Below, piece after piece: positions 8,537 to 62,253 of a stretch of DNA of 64,000 nt. The position numbers were made by a program, and so were the translations under genes. The stretch lies in assembly GCF_027532025.1 (NCBI RefSeq), contig NZ_JAPZSY010000012.1:1-64000 (forward strand), given 5' to 3'. Positions within the stretch are counted from its first letter, which is position 1. The number at the start of each line of letters is the position of its first letter. This DNA is from Inhella sp. (GTDB lineage Bacteria > Pseudomonadota > Gammaproteobacteria > Burkholderiales > Burkholderiaceae_C). A model generated the notes under the pieces. It was not told the origin of the DNA, did not search any database, and was given only the letters and a program-made list of their open reading frames with translations.

Positions 8537-10279
8537 ATGAACATCGATCTTTGCACCGGCCGACTCCCCCCATCCGACGCCCCCGCCACCACGGGGGCCG
8601 AGTGCCTGATTCGGGGCTTGGTGGCCCTCGGGGTGGACACCGTGTTCGGCTACCCCGGCGGGGCGGTGCTGCCCATTTACGACGCGCTGTTCGGGGAGCC
8701 GCGGCTGCGCCACGTGCTGGTGCGCCACGAACAGGCCGCCGTCCACGCCGCCGAAGGCTACGCGCGCAGCACCGGGCACCTGGGCGTGGTGCTCGTCACC
8801 TCCGGCCCAGGGGTGGCCAACACCGTCTCTGGCCTGCTGGACGCGCAATCCGACTCGCTGCCGGTGCTGTGCATCAGCGGCCAGGTGGCGCGGGCTGCCA
8901 TCGGCACGCAAGCGTTCCAGGAATGCGATGCCCTGTCGATCACTCGCTCGGTGACCAAGTGGCAGGCGCAAGCGCGGGAGGCCGCGCACATCCCAGCGCT
9001 GCTGCACCAAGCCGTCGCGGCGGCCTGCAGCGGCCGCCCAGGTCCGGTGCTGCTGGACATCCCCAAGGACGTGCTGGCCGAGGCCTGCCACGCCGCCGCC
9101 GTGCCTGCTCCCACACCGCAACCGCCGCCCGCCGCCGCGGTGGACGAAGCGCTCGCCGCCGCGGTGGTCGACGCCCTGGCCTGCGCCGAGCGCCCGGTGT
9201 TCTATGGCGGCGGCGGTTTGGTGCAGGCGGGCGAGGCGGCTTGCGCCGACTTTGCGGCCCTCGTCAACGACAGCGGTGCGCCCTGCACCCTGACCCTGCA
9301 GGGCCTGGGCGCCCTGCCGGCCAGCAACCCGGCATGGCTGGGCATGCTGGGCATGCACGGCACGCTGGAAGCCAACATGGCCATGCACGAGGCCGACCTG
9401 GTGCTGGCGCTGGGCAGCCGGTTTGACGACCGGGTGACCGGCCGCTTGGGCGACTTTTGTCCACGGGCGCGCTTCGTGCACCTGAGCATCGACCCGCTCA
9501 ACATCGGCCGGGTCGTGCGGGCCGACTTTCCGCTCGTGGGCCCGGCCGATGCCTGGCTGCAGGCCCTGCGCCGCGCCTGGCACCAGCGCCCGGCGCTGGC
9601 GGCCGATCGCCTCGCGCCCTGGTGGGCACGCATCGAGACCTGGCGGCAGCGCCGCTCGCTGGCTTTCGCGGAACGCCGCCCGCACATCGCCCCGCAGGCG
9701 CTCATGCAAACCCTGGACCGTCACCTGCGCGGGCGCGACGCCATCGTCAGCACCGACGTCGGCCAGCACCAGATGTGGGCCGCGCAGCACTTGGGTTTCG
9801 AAAAGCCACGGCGCTTTCTGACCTCGGGCGGCGCCGGCACCATGGGCTTCGGCCTGCCAGCGGCCATCGGGGCGCAAATCGCCCACCCCGGGCGGCTCGT
9901 GGTCTGCGTCAGCGGCGACGCTTCCTTCTTGATGAACCTGCAAGAGATGTCAACCGCCGTGCAGCACGGCTGCCCCGTGAAGGTCGTGCTGGTCAACAAC
10001 GGGCGCATGGGCATGGTGCGCCAGTGGCAAGCGCTGCACCACGGCGGCCGCTACAGCCACAGCTACACCGAGGCCCTGCCTGACTTCGTGGCCCTGGCAC
10101 AGAGCTTCGGCTGGCAAGCCCGGCGCCTGACGCAGCACGACGAACTCGAGGCCGGCGTGCTCGAAGCACTCAACCAACCGGGCCCCGTCCTGCTCGACGT
10201 GGAGGTGCTCGCCGAAGAGAACTGCTACCCCATGATGCCGGCCGGCGCCGGCCAGCACGAGTTGCTGCTGGCCCCCTGA
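8537..10279 (+). CDS. Acetolactate synthase large subunit-like, thiamine-diphosphate-dependent enzyme
   Basis: VFGYPGGAVLPIYDAL, VRHEQAAVHAAEGYARSTG, SGPGVANTVSGLLDA, GDASFLMNLQEMSTAV. Confidence 0.92.
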   Translation: MNIDLCTGRLPPSDAPATTGAECLIRGLVALGVDTVFGYPGGAVLPIYDALFGEPRLRHVLVRHEQAAVHAAEGYARSTGHLGVVLVTSGPGVANTVSGLLDAQSDSLPVLCISGQVARAAIGTQAFQECDALSITRSVTKWQAQAREAAHIPALLHQAVAAACSGRPGPVLLDIPKDVLAEACHAAAVPAPTPQPPPAAAVDEALAAAVVDALACAERPVFYGGGGLVQAGEAACADFAALVNDSGAPCTLTLQGLGALPASNPAWLGMLGMHGTLEANMAMHEADLVLALGSRFDDRVTGRLGDFCPRARFVHLSIDPLNIGRVVRADFPLVGPADAWLQALRRAWHQRPALAADRLAPWWARIETWRQRRSLAFAERRPHIAPQALMQTLDRHLRGRDAIVSTDVGQHQMWAAQHLGFEKPRRFLTSGGAGTMGFGLPAAIGAQIAHPGRLVVCVSGDASFLMNLQEMSTAVQHGCPVKVVLVNNGRMGMVRQWQALHHGGRYSHSYTEALPDFVALAQSFGWQARRLTQHDELEAGVLEALNQPGPVLLDVEVLAEENCYPMMPAGAGQHELLLAP

Positions 10280-48663: not shown

Positions 48664-50118
48664 ATGTCAGTTCCGCACGAACGCATGTCCCGCGTCGACA
48701 CCGCCTGGTTGCGGATGGACACGCCCGAGAACCTGATGATGATCGTCGGGGTCTGGCTGCTCAGCCCCCGTCTGGAGCTGGAAACGCTGCGGCAGCGGGT
48801 GGGCGAACGCCTGTTGCAGTACCGACGCTTCACGCAACGCGTCGTCGAAGACCCGATGGGCGCGCAGTGGGTCAATGTGCCCGACTTCGACCTGACCGAC
48901 CACGTCATCGCCGTCGACCTGGAGGCGCGCCCCGGCCAGAGCCGGACGGACGCCCTGAAAGAGCACGTGGCGGCGCTGACCGCCGACCCCCTGGACGCCC
49001 GCCTGCCGCTGTGGCAGATCCAACTCATCCAGGACGTGGACGGCCGCAGCGCGATGGTCTCGCGCATCCACCATTGCATCGCCGATGGCATCGCCCTCAT
49101 CTCGGTCATGCTGTCCATCACCGACGGGGGCCTGCCGCCGCCGGTACGCCGCAAGCGCTCCGAACCCGAAAGCGACGAGGGCGAGTTCGACTGGGTGATC
49201 GACACCCTGGTCAAGCCCGTGACCCAGCTGACCATGCAAACGGTCAAGCTGGCCAGCAAAGGCGTCTCCAAGGGCATGGACGCCTTCATGCACCCCGACC
49301 AACCCATGGACGGCACGCTGCACCTGGCCCGGCTGGGCTTCCAGGCGGTGAACGACGTGAGCGCGCTGGCGGTGATGCCCAACGACTCGGCCACCCGGCT
49401 GAAGGGCAAACCGGGCATCGCCAAGCGGGTGGCTTGGAACGACGACCTGCCGCTGGACCGCGTCAAGGTCGTGGGCAAAGCGCTGATGGGGTCCATCAAC
49501 GACGTCCTGCTCAGCTGCGTGGCCGGCGCCATCGGCGAGTACCTGCGCAGCAAGGGCGACGACCCCACGGGGCTGGAAATCCGTGCCATGGTGCCCGTGA
49601 ACCTGCGCCCCATGGACAAGGCCTACCAGTTGGGCAACCGCTTCGGTTTGGTCCCGCTGGTGCTGCCGATCGGCATCGACAACCCGGTGGAGCGGCTGTA
49701 CGCGGTGCGAGCGCGCATGCACGACCTCAAGGGCAGCTTCCAGCCGCTGATGGCCTTTGGCCTGCTCAGCGTGGCGGGCCTGCTGATCAAGCCGGTGCAG
49801 CACGCCCTGCTGGGCCTGTTTGCCAAGAAGGCCACGGCGGTGATGACCAACGTGCCGGGCCCGCAAAAGCCGCTTCAGTTTTGCGGCTGCACCGTGGACC
49901 AGGTGCTGTTTTGGGTGCCCCAGAGTGGCGACATCGGCATGGGGGTGAGCATCCTGACCTACGCCGGCAAGGTGCAGTTTGGGCTCATCACGGACGCCGG
50001 CCTGTGCCCCGACCCCCAGGCCATCGTGGACCGCCTGCCCGGCGCCTTCGAGCGCCTGGAGACGCTGACCTTGATGCTGCCTTGGGGCGAGGATCAGCTC
50101 GAAGGTTTGCCCGGCTGA
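48664..50118 (+). CDS. Wax ester synthase / diacylglycerol acyltransferase (WS/DGAT)
   Basis: HHCIADG (HHxxxDG) active site; NDVLLSCVAGAIGEYLRSKGDD; TNVPGPQKPLQFCG. Confidence 0.95.
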   Translation: MSVPHERMSRVDTAWLRMDTPENLMMIVGVWLLSPRLELETLRQRVGERLLQYRRFTQRVVEDPMGAQWVNVPDFDLTDHVIAVDLEARPGQSRTDALKEHVAALTADPLDARLPLWQIQLIQDVDGRSAMVSRIHHCIADGIALISVMLSITDGGLPPPVRRKRSEPESDEGEFDWVIDTLVKPVTQLTMQTVKLASKGVSKGMDAFMHPDQPMDGTLHLARLGFQAVNDVSALAVMPNDSATRLKGKPGIAKRVAWNDDLPLDRVKVVGKALMGSINDVLLSCVAGAIGEYLRSKGDDPTGLEIRAMVPVNLRPMDKAYQLGNRFGLVPLVLPIGIDNPVERLYAVRARMHDLKGSFQPLMAFGLLSVAGLLIKPVQHALLGLFAKKATAVMTNVPGPQKPLQFCGCTVDQVLFWVPQSGDIGMGVSILTYAGKVQFGLITDAGLCPDPQAIVDRLPGAFERLETLTLMLPWGEDQLEGLPG

Positions 50119-53772: not shown

Positions 53773-54330
53773 ATGTCCAAGGATGCTTCGCTGCCTGACT
53801 CGGACGCCGTCCCGGGATGGGAGGCGGCCTATGAGGAGCTCAAGCGCATTGCCCACGCCCGCCTGCATGCCGCCGGTGGCGCTGCCGGCGCGCAAGGCCT
53901 GACCCAACTCAACACCACGGCCTTGGTCAATGAAACCTTTGTCCGCTGGGGCCACCGCGCCGACGCCAGTCGCTTCCCAAGCCGCGGGCATTTCTTCGCC
54001 TACGCGGCGCGGGTGATGCGCTCGGTGGTGGTGGACTTGGTGCGCGAACGCCAGTCAGAACGACGCGGCGGCGGCTGGCAAGGCGTGACACTGGGCCCCA
54101 CTTTGGACAACCAATTGGCCGCCCCCCAGGAGGAGGAAGCCCTGCAAGTGGACGAAGCCCTGAAGGCCCTTCAGGCGGTGGAGCCGCGGCTGGGCCAAGT
54201 GGTGGAAATGCGCTACTTCGCTGGCATGAGCGAGGCCGAGATTGCCGAGGTTCTGGGCCTGAGCGAACGCACCGTGAGACGCGACTGGGAAAAGGCCCGT
54301 GCCCTGCTGCGCAGCATGCTGGCCGACTGA
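53773..54330 (+). CDS. ECF-type sigma factor (TIGR02999/PF07638-like)
   Basis: LTQLNTTALVNETFVRWGHRADASRFPSRGHFFAYAARVMRSVVVDLVRER; sigma4 GMSEAEIAEVLGLSERTVRRDWEKARALL. Confidence 0.92.
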   Translation: MSKDASLPDSDAVPGWEAAYEELKRIAHARLHAAGGAAGAQGLTQLNTTALVNETFVRWGHRADASRFPSRGHFFAYAARVMRSVVVDLVRERQSERRGGGWQGVTLGPTLDNQLAAPQEEEALQVDEALKALQAVEPRLGQVVEMRYFAGMSEAEIAEVLGLSERTVRRDWEKARALLRSMLAD

Positions 54331-54405
54331 ATCTCCAGCCGAATGGCCCAGGGAAGGGCGGACATTGACCGCTTTCAGGCGCCTGACCCGTTGGCTTTAA
54401 AGGCC

Positions 54406-57192
54406 ATGAACATGCCCCTGCCCTGCCCGCCCGAACACTGGAGCGCCTTCTCCCTTCGGCTGGATGAAGCCATGGCCATGCCTGAGGCTGAGCGCGAGGC
54501 TTGGTTGGCCGCCCTGCCGGCGTCCGACGTTGTCCTCGCGCCCTACCTGGCTGCGGTGCTGCGCCACTTGAGCGCGCCCGAGACGGGCGCGCCCCCGCTG
54601 CATGCGCCCCGCCTGAGCCCCACCGCAGAGCACCGGCCGGGGGAGGCCGTTGGCCCTTACGAGTTGCTGGCGCCCCTGGGCGAGGGGGGCATGGGGACCG
54701 TCTGGCGCGCGCGGCGAGCCGATGGCGCCTATGCGCGCGAAGTGGCCTTGAAGTTGCCCCATGCCCACTTGCTGGTCGGCTCGGTGCGCGAGCGCTTCGA
54801 GCGCGAGCGCGACATCCTCGCGAGTCTGGTGCATCCCCACATCGCCACCTTCCTCGACGCCGGACTGAGCGAGCGCGGCCAGCCCTACCTGGCGCTGGAA
54901 CTGGTCAGCGGCCAGCCCATCACCACCCACGCGCAGCAACGCGCCCTGAGCGTGGCGCAGCGCTTGGCCCTGTTCGATCAGGTGCTGGCGGCCGTGGCCC
55001 ATGCCCACAGCCGCCTGGTGGCGCACCGCGACATCAAGCCGGCCAACGTGCTGGTCAACACTCAAGGCCAGGTGAAGCTGCTGGATTTCGGCATCGCCAA
55101 GCTGCTGCACGGGCAGGACGACGGGCTTGCGCTGACGCGCGAATCGTTGCCCGCGACGCCACGCTACGCCGCTCCCGAGCAGCGCAAGGGGGGCGTCATC
55201 ACCGTGGTCACCGACGTCTACGCCCTCGGGCTGATGCTTCACGAACTGCTCAGCGGGCAGGCGGCGTGGCCACAAGGCTGGAGGGAGGCGCAATCTCAGC
55301 CTCCGTTGCCTTCCAGCGTCGTGGCCGAAGCCGCACTGCGCCGCACGCTGAAGGGGGATCTCGATGCCATCGTGCACAAGGCCTTGCAGCCTGAGCCCGC
55401 GCAGCGCTATGCCAGCGTGGCCGCCCTGGCCGAAGACCTTCAGCGCTACCGCCTGGGCAGGCCGATTGCAGCGCGCCGCATCACGCCGTGGGTGCGTGCG
55501 GGCAAGTTCGTGCAGCGCCACCGCCTTCCCGCCGCGCTGGGCTTGGGCTTGGCCGCCAGCCTGCTGGCCGGCGTGGTGGGCGTGGCTTGGCAGGCGCACC
55601 AAGCGAGTGAGCAAGCCCGCCGCGCCGAGGCGGTGAAGAACTTCCTCATCTCGGTGTTTGAGGGTGCCGACCCCCGCCTGGCCGGCAACCGCGCTCGCGG
55701 CATGACCCCAGTGCGCGAATTGCTGGATCGCCATGCATCACGGATCGACACGGATTTCGCGACCGATCCGCAGCTGCGCATCGAGCTGCTGGGCCTGGTG
55801 GCCGCGCTTTACCGTGAGTTGGATGAACCCGCCGCAGCTCAGCGCTTCGCCGATCGGTTCCTCAACCTGGCCACAGAGCATCTGGGGCCACAACATGCTT
55901 GGGTGCTGAGTGCGCGAGTCGAGCGCCTTGCACAGGTGTACTCGCAAGGCGACCTCCCGGACTGCCGCTCCCTGGCCGCGCCGCTGGACGCGGAGATACG
56001 GCAGGCCGGACTGGATGCCAGCGAACTCCGTGCTGCATGGTGGTTGAACACGGCCTTGTGCCATGCCGACGCACCCGAGCGCGGGCCCGAGCGGCTGCGC
56101 TGGCTGACCCAATCCGAGGCGCTGTTCGCCCGTACGGCGCCGGGCAGCCGAGGCCACGTGACGGCGTGGGTGGAACTTGCCAACCTGCACAGTGCGGCTG
56201 GCCGTTTCGAACCGGCCCTTCAGGGCTTCCAGCGGGCACTCGCATTGGCAGAGTCCCAGCCTCGCCGCAACGAGGTGGAGTTGCAGACCTTGCACGGCAA
56301 CATGGGCTTGACCCTGCAACAGATGGGTCGCCTCGACGAGGCCGCTGCCGCCTACGGACGTGCAGCCGAGGTGGCCGAACGCACCGTCGGCGCGGCCCAT
56401 CCCACCAGTTGGGAGCCCCGTGCCAACCACCTGCGCACCCTGCACCTGGCCGGCCAGCGGGAGGCCGCATGGGCCTTGCTGCCCGAACTGCAAGCCGCCA
56501 TCGAGGCCGCCGAACAGCGTCCCGATGTGCGCGTGCTGATGGCCAACACCCGCGAGCACATTGGCGAACGCATGGCCGCTGAAGGCCGCGGCGCGCAAGC
56601 GCTGCCCTGGCTGCGCAGCGCCGTGGCGCTGCATGAGCAGTCGAGCACCTACCCCTTTGCCCACCGCCGTGCGCTGCGCCACCTGGGAGACGCGCTGGCC
56701 CGCGCCGGCGAGGAGTCCGAAGCGGGCCGCGTGCTGGCCGATGCACTGGCACGCTACGAGGCTGCCGATCCTGCAGGACGGCAAGCGGTGGTGGCGGCCC
56801 GTGAGCGCTACGCCCGCTGGCTGCTGGCGGCCGGGCAATCAGCGCAAGCAGGCGCGCAGTTCGAACGTTGCATCGCCGACGCCGAGTCCAAAACTTGGGC
56901 CCATGTGGCCCTGGCACAGGCGGGCGCCGCCCGGGTGGCACTGATGGCGGGGAGACTCCTTGATGCGCAGGCGCACAGCGCCCAAGCGCTGGCCACGTGG
57001 TCCACCGTGACGGGGTTTCGCGACGTGCGCATGCAGGCCTATCTGTGGCGCGTGCGCGCCGCCGTGCTGGAGCGCGACCCCAGCACCCGGCAGGAAGCCG
57101 GCGCGCTGTGGGCCAAGGCGCTGGCTGCCGCGCAGCGCACCGATGCCCCCGGCGCGGCCACGCTCACGCAGCCCCAGACGCTTCCGCTGTGA
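54406..57192 (+). CDS. Transmembrane serine/threonine protein kinase with C-terminal helical/TPR-like region
   Basis: LGEGGMGTVWRARRADGAYAREVALKL, VAHRDIKPANVLV, LLDFGIAKLL, APEQRKGG; TM LGLGLAASLLAGVVGVAW; long A/L-rich repeat C-terminus. ATG at 54343 is an alternative start. Confidence 0.93.
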   Translation: MNMPLPCPPEHWSAFSLRLDEAMAMPEAEREAWLAALPASDVVLAPYLAAVLRHLSAPETGAPPLHAPRLSPTAEHRPGEAVGPYELLAPLGEGGMGTVWRARRADGAYAREVALKLPHAHLLVGSVRERFERERDILASLVHPHIATFLDAGLSERGQPYLALELVSGQPITTHAQQRALSVAQRLALFDQVLAAVAHAHSRLVAHRDIKPANVLVNTQGQVKLLDFGIAKLLHGQDDGLALTRESLPATPRYAAPEQRKGGVITVVTDVYALGLMLHELLSGQAAWPQGWREAQSQPPLPSSVVAEAALRRTLKGDLDAIVHKALQPEPAQRYASVAALAEDLQRYRLGRPIAARRITPWVRAGKFVQRHRLPAALGLGLAASLLAGVVGVAWQAHQASEQARRAEAVKNFLISVFEGADPRLAGNRARGMTPVRELLDRHASRIDTDFATDPQLRIELLGLVAALYRELDEPAAAQRFADRFLNLATEHLGPQHAWVLSARVERLAQVYSQGDLPDCRSLAAPLDAEIRQAGLDASELRAAWWLNTALCHADAPERGPERLRWLTQSEALFARTAPGSRGHVTAWVELANLHSAAGRFEPALQGFQRALALAESQPRRNEVELQTLHGNMGLTLQQMGRLDEAAAAYGRAAEVAERTVGAAHPTSWEPRANHLRTLHLAGQREAAWALLPELQAAIEAAEQRPDVRVLMANTREHIGERMAAEGRGAQALPWLRSAVALHEQSSTYPFAHRRALRHLGDALARAGEESEAGRVLADALARYEAADPAGRQAVVAARERYARWLLAAGQSAQAGAQFERCIADAESKTWAHVALAQAGAARVALMAGRLLDAQAHSAQALATWSTVTGFRDVRMQAYLWRVRAAVLERDPSTRQEAGALWAKALAAAQRTDAPGAATLTQPQTLPL

Positions 57193-58428
57193 TCACACCG
57201 AGAAGAAGTCCAGCACCGCTGCCGAGCCCAGCGTGCGCAGCGGTGTGGCCCCGGCCGCGCCCTTGGCGAGGAATTCATCGAAGTCGTAGAGCTTCTTCTC
57301 CCACAAGCATTGCTTGCAGCCGGGCAGCCACTTGAAGCGCACCCAGCCAGCGAGCATACCCGGGTCGGTGGTGGCCCAGTTGTCAGGCGATCTGAACAGC
57401 GTTTGCGTGCGACCGTTGCTCAGCATCAGCACCAGGCGGCCAGCGGTTCGGCTAGAAGCAGGGTCGTCAGGCATCCACACCATCACGTCCAGGGTGACCG
57501 GGTTCACATCCAGCAAGTAGGCCGGTCCCCAGGCCAGCGTGTTGGGCACACCGGCGTTGTAAGTGCCGCCGCTCACCAAGTGCTGGGTCACGGTGATGGG
57601 GAGAAAGCGTTGAGCGATTTCGTATCGCGCAGGCACCACACCGGGCGCGCTGAGCAAGCGGCCTTGCGTCATCTCCGTGACTTCGCGGTTGACGAGCAGG
57701 GTGTCACCCACCCAGAGCGGCATCCAGCACTTCACCGAATCGCGTCCTGATCCCACCACGAACACCGGCGGCGCCGGGTCGACCTGCGGTCGGGCCGTCA
57801 CGGCACCGGTATCGGTATTCACCGCCATCGTGTAGCCGCCGAACACACCCACGCCATCGTTGCCAAGCATGGAGATGGACGCGAAGTTTTGCGGACAAAA
57901 GGTCAGTTCGTGCCGCGTGGCATGCCAGGCCATCGAGCCCAGGTTGCCCGCGCCCACATGGCGCTCGTTGCTGCCATCGGTGTGGATGACGCGAATGCCG
58001 GCGCCATCCCGGCTGTCGCCGCCCTTGTTGCTGAAGAAGGCCACGCGCTGCCCGTCGGGCGACCAGCGGGCATGCTGTGGAAAGTCGTCGGTGAAGGTCT
58101 TCACCACCTGCAGGTCGCTGCCGTCGAGCCGGCTGTGGGCCAGCACATAGGTGTTGCGCGAGGGGTTGGAGACAAAGCCCATGCGCACGGTGGACGAGGG
58201 TGGCACGGGGGGTGGCGGCGCAGGAGGAGGCGGTGGGGGCGGAGGCGGAGGCGGGGGCGGTGGTGCGGGCGCCGGCGGTACCGGGCCACTGGGGAGCGCA
58301 CTGTCGCCGCCCCCGCCGCCGCAACCGGCCAACAAGGCGGCACTGACGCTCAGCAGTGCGCGCCGTCGAGACAGGTCAAGACCAGGCGACCAGGTGGGTG
58401 GGTTGGGCGGTGGCAAGGTGGCAGACAT
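57193..58428 (-). CDS. Exported lipoprotein with TolB/PD40-like N-terminal repeat and 14-residue polyproline linker
   Basis: LLAGCGGGGG lipobox; SRLDGSDLQVVKTFTDDFPQHARWSPDGQRVAFFSNKGG (PD40-like). Confidence 0.75.
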   Translation of the reverse strand: MSATLPPPNPPTWSPGLDLSRRRALLSVSAALLAGCGGGGGDSALPSGPVPPAPAPPPPPPPPPPPPPPAPPPPVPPSSTVRMGFVSNPSRNTYVLAHSRLDGSDLQVVKTFTDDFPQHARWSPDGQRVAFFSNKGGDSRDGAGIRVIHTDGSNERHVGAGNLGSMAWHATRHELTFCPQNFASISMLGNDGVGVFGGYTMAVNTDTGAVTARPQVDPAPPVFVVGSGRDSVKCWMPLWVGDTLLVNREVTEMTQGRLLSAPGVVPARYEIAQRFLPITVTQHLVSGGTYNAGVPNTLAWGPAYLLDVNPVTLDVMVWMPDDPASSRTAGRLVLMLSNGRTQTLFRSPDNWATTDPGMLAGWVRFKWLPGCKQCLWEKKLYDFDEFLAKGAAGATPLRTLGSAAVLDFFSV

Positions 58429-58522
58429 GAGGATGGGACTGACCGATGTGAGTAGGACAAGGACACCAACGCGAACTCGCCGCCGAAGCGGACACGCCCG
58501 ATGAGTGGGGAGGCGCGTGCCT

Positions 58523-59662
58523 TCAGGGAGCCACGCCCACGGGCATCCACGCCTGAATGCGGCCCATCCCGTAGGCGAGAAAACCGATGTCGCCGGCATC
58601 GGCCAGTCGCCAACGCACCCACAACTCGCGTCGTGTGGCATCCACCCCGACCTCCAGGCTGTTCTTCGATCCTTTCGGCCGCTCCACGGCAAGCTGCCAG
58701 GCCACGGGTTGGGCATAGGGGGGCAGATCGAAGGTCCAGCGATCGCTGCCCTCCACGGGCGCGCCGCCGAGCTCCGTGTCCGAGACATGCACCGCTCGCA
58801 ACGGCACCTCCGGCCCGAAGGCGCTTTTGAAGCCCACACACTGCAAGCCCTGGCACGGCGGCGACGAACCGCCCGCATGGCCTTGGCACCAGCCGCGCAC
58901 TGCAGGCTGGGCAACGCGAGCGTCGCAACTCAGGCTGCGTGCTCTCGCTTCGATGTTCACCAACTCCCATTGGGGCCAAAACTGCGCCTCAGCGGAGGCC
59001 AGCAGGCCGCGCGCCGTGGTCAGGTTCACCGTCGCTCGACCGGGTGGTACCCCTCGGATGTCCGTCGGCATGGCCAGTTGCAACTGCGAGGGCTTCCAGT
59101 CCACCACTTGGGCGTAAAAGCTGCGCTCCTGAGCAGCGCCGAGACGCAACTCCACCCGGCCGACGCCGTTGCCCAGGCAATGGCCGCGCACGATGAACAG
59201 CTCCCCAGGCACCAGGCGCTCGCCAGAGGCCGGCTCAACGGCCGTGATTTCCGGCTGCGGTGCTGCAACTTGATCGCACACCTTCACGGCGGTCGCGGCG
59301 GCACCACCGACCAAGCGCTGACGCTGCGATGGCGCCGCAGCAAAGCCAGCACGTTGCAGCGCACCGGCCGCCGGGCGTGGCGGTGGCGGTGCCGCCTGCG
59401 ACAAGTGCTGGACTGCAGTGGTTTGACGTTGGCTGGGTGCTGTGTTGGCGCTGGAAACCAAAGGCGCGACACCGCTCGCCGCCTGCACCTGCGGTGTCAT
59501 GACCTGCATCTTGGTGGCCATGGGCGGGCGCGCAGCTGGGCTCGGCAAGGACGATGGTGCCGCCAGGCCCTGAGCCTGCGCGCTCAAGGCCGTCCACAGC
59601 AGCCAGGCCCCACTGCAGGCATGAATGCTGCGCATCGTTCGGGATGGAGTCGGGAGGTTCAT
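58523..59662 (-). CDS. Exported protein A of a paralogous six-Cys FWPxW pair (IPT/TIG-like?), unknown function
   Basis: Signal peptide; PGELFIVRGHCLG...AQVVDWKPSQLQLAMPTDIRGVPPGRATVNLTTARGLLASAEAQFWPQWE. Confidence 0.75.
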   Translation of the reverse strand: MNLPTPSRTMRSIHACSGAWLLWTALSAQAQGLAAPSSLPSPAARPPMATKMQVMTPQVQAASGVAPLVSSANTAPSQRQTTAVQHLSQAAPPPPRPAAGALQRAGFAAAPSQRQRLVGGAAATAVKVCDQVAAPQPEITAVEPASGERLVPGELFIVRGHCLGNGVGRVELRLGAAQERSFYAQVVDWKPSQLQLAMPTDIRGVPPGRATVNLTTARGLLASAEAQFWPQWELVNIEARARSLSCDARVAQPAVRGWCQGHAGGSSPPCQGLQCVGFKSAFGPEVPLRAVHVSDTELGGAPVEGSDRWTFDLPPYAQPVAWQLAVERPKGSKNSLEVGVDATRRELWVRWRLADAGDIGFLAYGMGRIQAWMPVGVAP

Positions 59663-62153: not shown

Positions 62154-62253
62154 GAGCTTGTTGAGGCGTGAAGTTGCTGATGCCACACACCAACGGCATG
62201 CCGCGGCCAGACCGGACAACGACGTGCCCCCTTGGGCTTCTGCCGCTCCGACT

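Follow-up and report, generated by a model that had tools for sequence, protein, structure and literature searches.

A sigma factor of Inhella sp. that is probably active only once an adjacent membrane kinase phosphorylates one threonine

Described kinase-linked sigma factors and the Inhella locus

The hallmark of ECF43 sigma factors is a QTTA consensus, with a threonine in 88%, together with an adjacent Hanks kinase (PMC13147305, PMC8999054). In EcfP of Vibrio parahaemolyticus, whose kinase is PknT, it is the second threonine of the STTA motif that is phosphorylated (Iyer et al. 2020, as described in PMC8999054), and in EcfK of Xanthomonas citri, whose kinase is PknS, it is T51 of the QATE motif (PMC13147305). 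The T51A variant of EcfK is still functional in X. citri via T106, and therefore homologous phosphosites are not always essential (PMC13147305). These are the only two phospho-switched sigma pairs detailed in the accessible literature, and their outputs are unrelated, namely the polymyxin response, to which EcfP is linked (PMC8999054), and a type VI secretion system that is controlled by EcfK (PMC13147305).

Here, we describe a window of 64,000 nucleotides of Inhella sp. (the whole stretch of DNA that was analyzed), in which the gene of an ECF sigma factor is followed by the gene of a membrane kinase (Table 1). This pair is likely to act as an ECF43-type sigma switch that is turned on by phosphorylation, as known for EcfP and EcfK, and that has a predicted promoter motif and exported-protein regulon. 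The more informative part of the locus, being the promoter motif and the adjacent predicted target genes, lies outside the interval 53773-57192 that encodes the pair. When compared with canonical ECF sigma factors controlled by anti-sigma factors, the two-domain architecture with regions 2 and 4 and the -35/-10 type of the (predicted) promoter are shared, whereas the acidic region 2.2 and the anti-sigma partner of the canonical systems are both missing at this locus.

Table 1. Features of the window discussed in the text (positions are those of the window; matrix scores refer to the 42-site matrix)
Feature	Position	Strand	Remarks
ECF-type sigma factor, 185 aa	53773-54330	+	Sig-70_X6/Sigma70_ECF family
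Codons of N47, T48, T49 and A50 (region 2.2 motif)	53911-53922	+	T49 at 53917-53919
Promoter-like site TGACCGCTTTCAGGCGCCTGACCCGTTGG, before kinase	54366-54394	+	matrix score 18.6
Transmembrane Hanks-type Ser/Thr kinase, ~928 aa with revised start	54406-57192	+	ORF opens at 54343
Predicted lipoprotein (predicted target)	57193-58428	-	LAGC lipobox; weak TolB-like propeller similarity
Promoter-like site TGTCCGCTTCGGCGGCGAGTTCGCGTTGG, 37 nt before lipoprotein start	58466-58494	-	matrix score 27.0
Exported protein with Ig/IPT-like domain (predicted), 379 aa	58523-59662	-	gene 4 of predicted operon
CsgG-family lipoprotein, 251 aa	59720-60475	-	operon gene 3; PF03783 54.7 bits (cut-off 20.8)
Small exported protein, 162 aa	60472-60960	-	without known family
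Exported protein, 398 aa	60957-62153	-	operon gene 1; distant similarity to the 58523-59662 protein
Promoter-like site TGTCCGGTCTGGCCGCGGCATGCCGTTGG, 36 nt before first start codon of operon	62190-62218	-	matrix score 28.0

The sigma factor, its region 2.2 and the kinase

The sigma ORF and the codons of T48 and T49 (53914-53919) are found exactly where a preliminary description of this DNA had placed them, and the region 2.2 stretch reads TQLNTTALVNETFVRW. The protein matches TIGR02999 (155 bits, cut-off 126) and PF07638 (138 bits), which are the nearest proxies for ECF43 but are both broader than this group, such that the ECF43 assignment is made by features. In the tree, it is grouped with Rubrivivax sequences (support 99). 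The structure model (pLDDT 67) has ECF sigma factors as its closest PDB matches; a structure-based argument for the phosphosite was dropped, as the model is of moderate confidence and the superposition on the PDB structures is poor.

The comparison with EcfK is made through the kinase. The top PDB match of the window kinase is entry 9eed (1.6e-48), a 364-residue 'Kinase domain protein', and the alignment extends through the N-terminal extension. This entry is taken to be PknS 1-364 of X. citri, the structure of which has been reported (PMC13147305). With its sequence as query, a 91% identical kinase is found in a Xanthomonadaceae genome, and the sigma factor encoded beside it has the QATE motif with Thr at position 51, as well as Thr104, Thr106, Ser108 and Ser110, in agreement with the published EcfK numbering (PMC13147305). 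This sigma factor (locus L086) is treated as the EcfK ortholog. It also passes TIGR02999 (184 bits); its sequence identity with the window sigma factor is 32%, which counts against the switch model.

At the place of the canonical DAED motif, the window sigma factor has N47-T48-T49-A50, followed by L-V-N53-E54, being an uncharged motif of the QTTA type with a threonine at position 3. When the DxxDxxQE pattern is aligned with NTTALVNE (cf. PMC13147305), the acidic slots D1, E3 and D4 correspond to N47, T49 and A50. T48 falls on the alanine slot, and therefore only one threonine, T49, replaces an acidic residue; the earlier view that both threonines occupy acidic positions can be kept for T49, but is ruled out for T48 by this alignment. 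The motif had also been regarded as atypical, which is not the case within its family, since the T49 position is a threonine in 75 of 81 relatives. Because xTTA is a family property, a chance occurrence is of no concern, yet the motif is not special to the window gene. Nor is an entirely uncharged motif the rule in this family, as slot 1 is still an aspartate in 49 of the 81 sequences (asparagine in 19).

T49 aligns with T51 of the EcfK ortholog, although the motif is NTTA instead of QATE, and by motif (NTTA versus STTA) it would correspond to the second threonine of EcfP. In an alignment of 18 sequences, T49 is invariant and T48 is variable; this variability and its position on the alanine slot make T48 the weaker candidate phosphosite. 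The homology supports T49 as the predicted phospho-switch residue. The equivalent of the second functional phosphosite of EcfK, T106, is Gly108, not one of the Ser, Thr, Asp or Glu residues that are present at this position in 76.9% of ECF43 sigma factors, and because of this glycine the window protein looks like the single-site EcfP kind. Threonines are retained at the equivalents of T104 and S108 of EcfK (T106 and T110, respectively).

The kinase ORF (54343-57192) is the next gene on the same strand, and a same-strand kinase also begins at most 1.5 kb downstream of the sigma gene in 65 of 80 relatives. Its start is probably at 54406 (MNMPLPCPPEHW) and not at 54343, as the former matches the MKALPCPPALW-type starts of relatives, and the gap between the sigma and kinase genes would therefore be about 75 bp, containing a promoter-like site. 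The layout is an N-terminal extension, a kinase domain (Pkinase match at residues 106-362), one TM helix (a single strong hydrophobic helix with its peak at about residues 397-415) and a C-terminal part with TPR matches (607-709). The catalytic motifs GEGGMG, VALKL, HRDIKPAN, DFG and APE are intact, which bears out that this is a TM Hanks-type kinase. Its adjacency to the sigma gene, its N-terminal extension and its TPR part are shared with PknS, for which the published domain order is also kinase-TM-TPR.

No anti-sigma gene is found among the neighboring genes checked around the pair, as had been proposed, with transhydrogenase genes being upstream and the convergent exported-protein genes downstream. 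The adjacent kinase and the lack of an anti-sigma factor are also features of EcfP, as described in PMC8999054. The upstream neighbors are ordinary: a WS/DGAT wax ester synthase/diacylglycerol acyltransferase gene (48664-50118), followed by the NUDIX and transhydrogenase genes. The genome has six Pkinase and two PP2C matches. Some 12 kb beyond the window, the same contig encodes a second Hanks-type kinase (C140:76418-77191), and another one lies beside a PP2C-type phosphatase (C79:7755-8504 and C79:8711-9280). Given the PP2C matches, a phosphatase able to reset the switch would be available, although unlinked.

A promoter-like motif and the exported-protein genes

In relatives, the motif TGTCCG-N17-CGTTKG is found before the adjacent exported-protein genes and before the kinase gene. 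It was first seen upstream of the sigma gene as CCAACGC...CCGGACA in divergent gaps, which on the opposite strand is TGTCCGG-N16-CGTTGG, oriented toward the exported-protein gene. The same fixed-spacing motif precedes PEP-CTERM genes, genes of PKD lipoproteins and CsgG genes, and it is also present between sigma and kinase. The idea that the sigma gene regulates itself through this motif is rejected, as there is no motif site before this gene within the window and the sites at the divergent loci point away from it, toward the exported-protein gene.

A matrix built from 42 sites, all outside the window, was scanned on the loci. The window has exactly three strong sites, with scores of 28.0, 27.0 and 18.6; the next score is 8.4, and the maxima of 30 shuffled windows have a mean of 10.0 and a largest value of 16.1. 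The exact pattern is found twice in the window (0.02 expected), and these two copies are the only exact-pattern matches in the 3.5-Mb genome. The site before the kinase has one mismatch to TGTCCGNTT-N14-CGTTKG and is separated from the start of the kinase by about 11 nt. The window count and the uniqueness in the genome are both independent of the motif discovery set, whereas the binomial value for positional clustering is circular at the discovery loci, which provide no independent test, and is for this reason not relied on. Genome-wide enrichment is rejected, as the motif counts are no higher than for the reversed pattern (34 versus 29); the signal is in the position and not in the number, positional clustering alone being significant. 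The three window sites are predicted to be promoters read by the phospho-activated sigma factor, this regulon being a sequence prediction with independent positional support. On the kinase side, the distance from the site to the start codon is frequently no more than 8-15 nt, in the window (54366-54406) as well as in the gap between the sigma and kinase genes of relatives, and the kinase mRNA from this site may therefore be leaderless.

Downstream of the kinase gene, and convergent with it, are five genes for predicted exported proteins. The genes of the CsgG-family protein, the small exported protein and the 398-residue protein have 4-base overlaps each, which is an operon-like arrangement of these three genes. 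The assignment of an Ig/IPT-like domain to the 58523-59662 protein rests on its AlphaFold2 model, which is good only at residues ~138-247, and on the structures that Foldseek matches with it, being an Ig-like domain from type II secretion and NF-kB dimerization domains. The PF03783 match relates operon gene 3 to the curli CsgG/HfaB/LpoB-like lipoproteins. Unlike in curli, its partners are the Ig/IPT-like and other exported proteins, and none of its neighbors matches the curli subunit, CsgE or CsgF families; a curli system is thereby ruled out.

The same pair has a CsgG relative as its neighbor in a Rubrivivax locus (L010) as well as in L014, L021, L022, L023 and L045 (Stagnimonas, Lysobacteraceae, Nevskia), and the link between motif and CsgG recurs in Nevskiaceae/Lysobacteraceae. 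Among 369 genomes of the class, the window's own protein is the only one above 41% identity; among the other genomes of the sigma clade, 7 of 18 have a relative with at least 55% identity, as against 0 of 368 sampled class genomes (Fisher 1e-10). The small exported protein accompanies CsgG in L010, as well as in L120 and L121, where the motif is also present. In Roseateles puraquae (L017), the sigma-kinase pair sits with PEP-CTERM, whereas the CsgG cluster is on a distant contig, on which three copies of the motif accompany the genes of CsgG (59%), of the small exported protein and of another exported protein, one for each. This cluster, unlinked to the sigma gene, is a second independent check of the link between motif and CsgG. 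In the closely related L003, the pair is present and a similar site precedes the kinase, yet CsgG is absent from its genome, and no exact motif copy is found there.

In a sister clade, the gene of a PEP-CTERM surface protein is beside the pair instead, divergent from sigma in most loci. In four loci (L006, L007, L013, L017), there is a short palindrome (GGCCGAATTTTCGGCC or GGTCGAGTGTTCGACC-like) between the promoter-like site and the PEP-CTERM start codon. More distant relatives of the sigma family have motif variants at their loci (TGTCSGGTT...CGTNTG). The locus of the EcfK ortholog differs in having no comparable site, its top matrix score being 3.4, and the motif is therefore not a general feature of EcfK-type systems. 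In L041-L067 (Roseateles/Pelomonas), a separate clade of the family, a variant TGTCGGGTT...CGTTT is located before the sigma gene but on the other strand (at about position 9830), which suggests clade-specific promoter codes.

The proposed switch and its alternatives

The switch model is backed by the family, the region 2.2 motif, the kinase partner and a kinase architecture matching both characterized pairs. It combines computed properties (family, motif, kinase integrity, gene linkage and promoter-like sites) with a predicted residue and predicted promoter activity, and with a phosphotransfer, a direction of the effect and a signal that are transferred from the published pairs. In this model, the unmodified sigma factor would be a poor binder of core RNA polymerase, because its region 2.2 is without acidic residues (NTTA for DAED). 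The kinase would sense an envelope or surface signal, probably via its TPR-containing C-terminal part, and would phosphorylate T49, and the phosphate would restore the contact with the beta-prime subunit by its negative charge. Once activated, the holoenzyme would read TGTCCG-N17-CGTTGG promoters, transcribing the kinase gene from its own site in a positive feedback, as well as the lipoprotein gene and the four-gene operon, which encodes the small exported protein, the CsgG-like lipoprotein and two further proteins predicted to be exported (one of them Ig/IPT-like). As the target genes encode exported or surface proteins, the predicted output is a change in these proteins.

A phospho-activated switch in a different clade had been suggested by the preliminary description. 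The switch is retained as the best reading, by homology with EcfK/PknS and EcfP/PknT, but the different clade is not, because the sigma factor passes TIGR02999, as the EcfK ortholog does, and has the features by which ECF43 has been described. A convergently acquired switch is likewise rejected, as xTTA is found family-wide and the kinases are related.

It is rather unlikely that phosphorylation occurs chiefly at other residues (T48, or T106 and T110 of the linker) or at several sites, with T49 alone not being decisive. EcfK, in which there are five phosphorylated sites and either T51 or T106 is sufficient (PMC13147305), provides the precedent, and the retained linker threonines would allow it; the glycine at the EcfK T106 position and the invariance of T49, but not of T48, argue against it, as does the single phosphosite of EcfP with its similarly uncharged motif (PMC8999054). 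Very unlikely is a sigma factor that is itself not phospho-controlled, the kinase having another protein as its target or an unlinked anti-sigma factor being in control. The genome has five other kinases and the phosphotransfer is proposed by homology, but the conserved adjacency of sigma and kinase, the sigma-type promoter site before the kinase, the lost charges of region 2.2 and the existence of two characterized homologous pairs all favor the phospho-switch.

The motif could also be bound by another regulator or sigma factor, its linkage to the window sigma factor being incidental. The connection is made by sequence position, and L003 shows that the sigma factor can be present without an exact motif copy. 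Nevertheless, this is unlikely, since TGTC and CGT separated by about 17-20 bases is the shape of ECF promoters (ECF41/42), the sites are oriented toward the genes with spacers of 8-42 nt, most members of the clade have one of them in the gap between the two genes of the pair, and the variant forms accompany more distant sigma relatives of the same family.

With the phospho-switched sigma factor as the preferred reading, a wider proposal can be made tentatively, at somewhat less than even chances: a clade of phospho-threonine-switched sigma factors with its own code, TGTCCG-N17-CGTTKG, may control a so far undescribed surface-assembly or secretion pathway through the kinase, conserved between Burkholderiales and Nevskiaceae/Lysobacteraceae. 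The surface module of this pathway, proposed equally tentatively, would consist of a CsgG-family lipoprotein pore and the kinase of the pair, together with proteins of the Ig/IPT-like or PEP-CTERM kind. The accessible literature that was covered has no mention of an ECF43-type switch linked to CsgG or PEP-CTERM. This type of phospho-switch is already known; new within this literature is its probable link to a promoter sequence and to the surface-protein genes that it would turn on. The locus provides one more such system, and as a defined promoter-like sequence and a few predicted target genes come with it, the switch can be rebuilt in Escherichia coli with a clean reporter. Having naturally lost the second phosphosite, the sigma factor is well suited as a single-site case. 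In addition, a possible regulator is assigned to an unstudied cluster of CsgG-like surface proteins.
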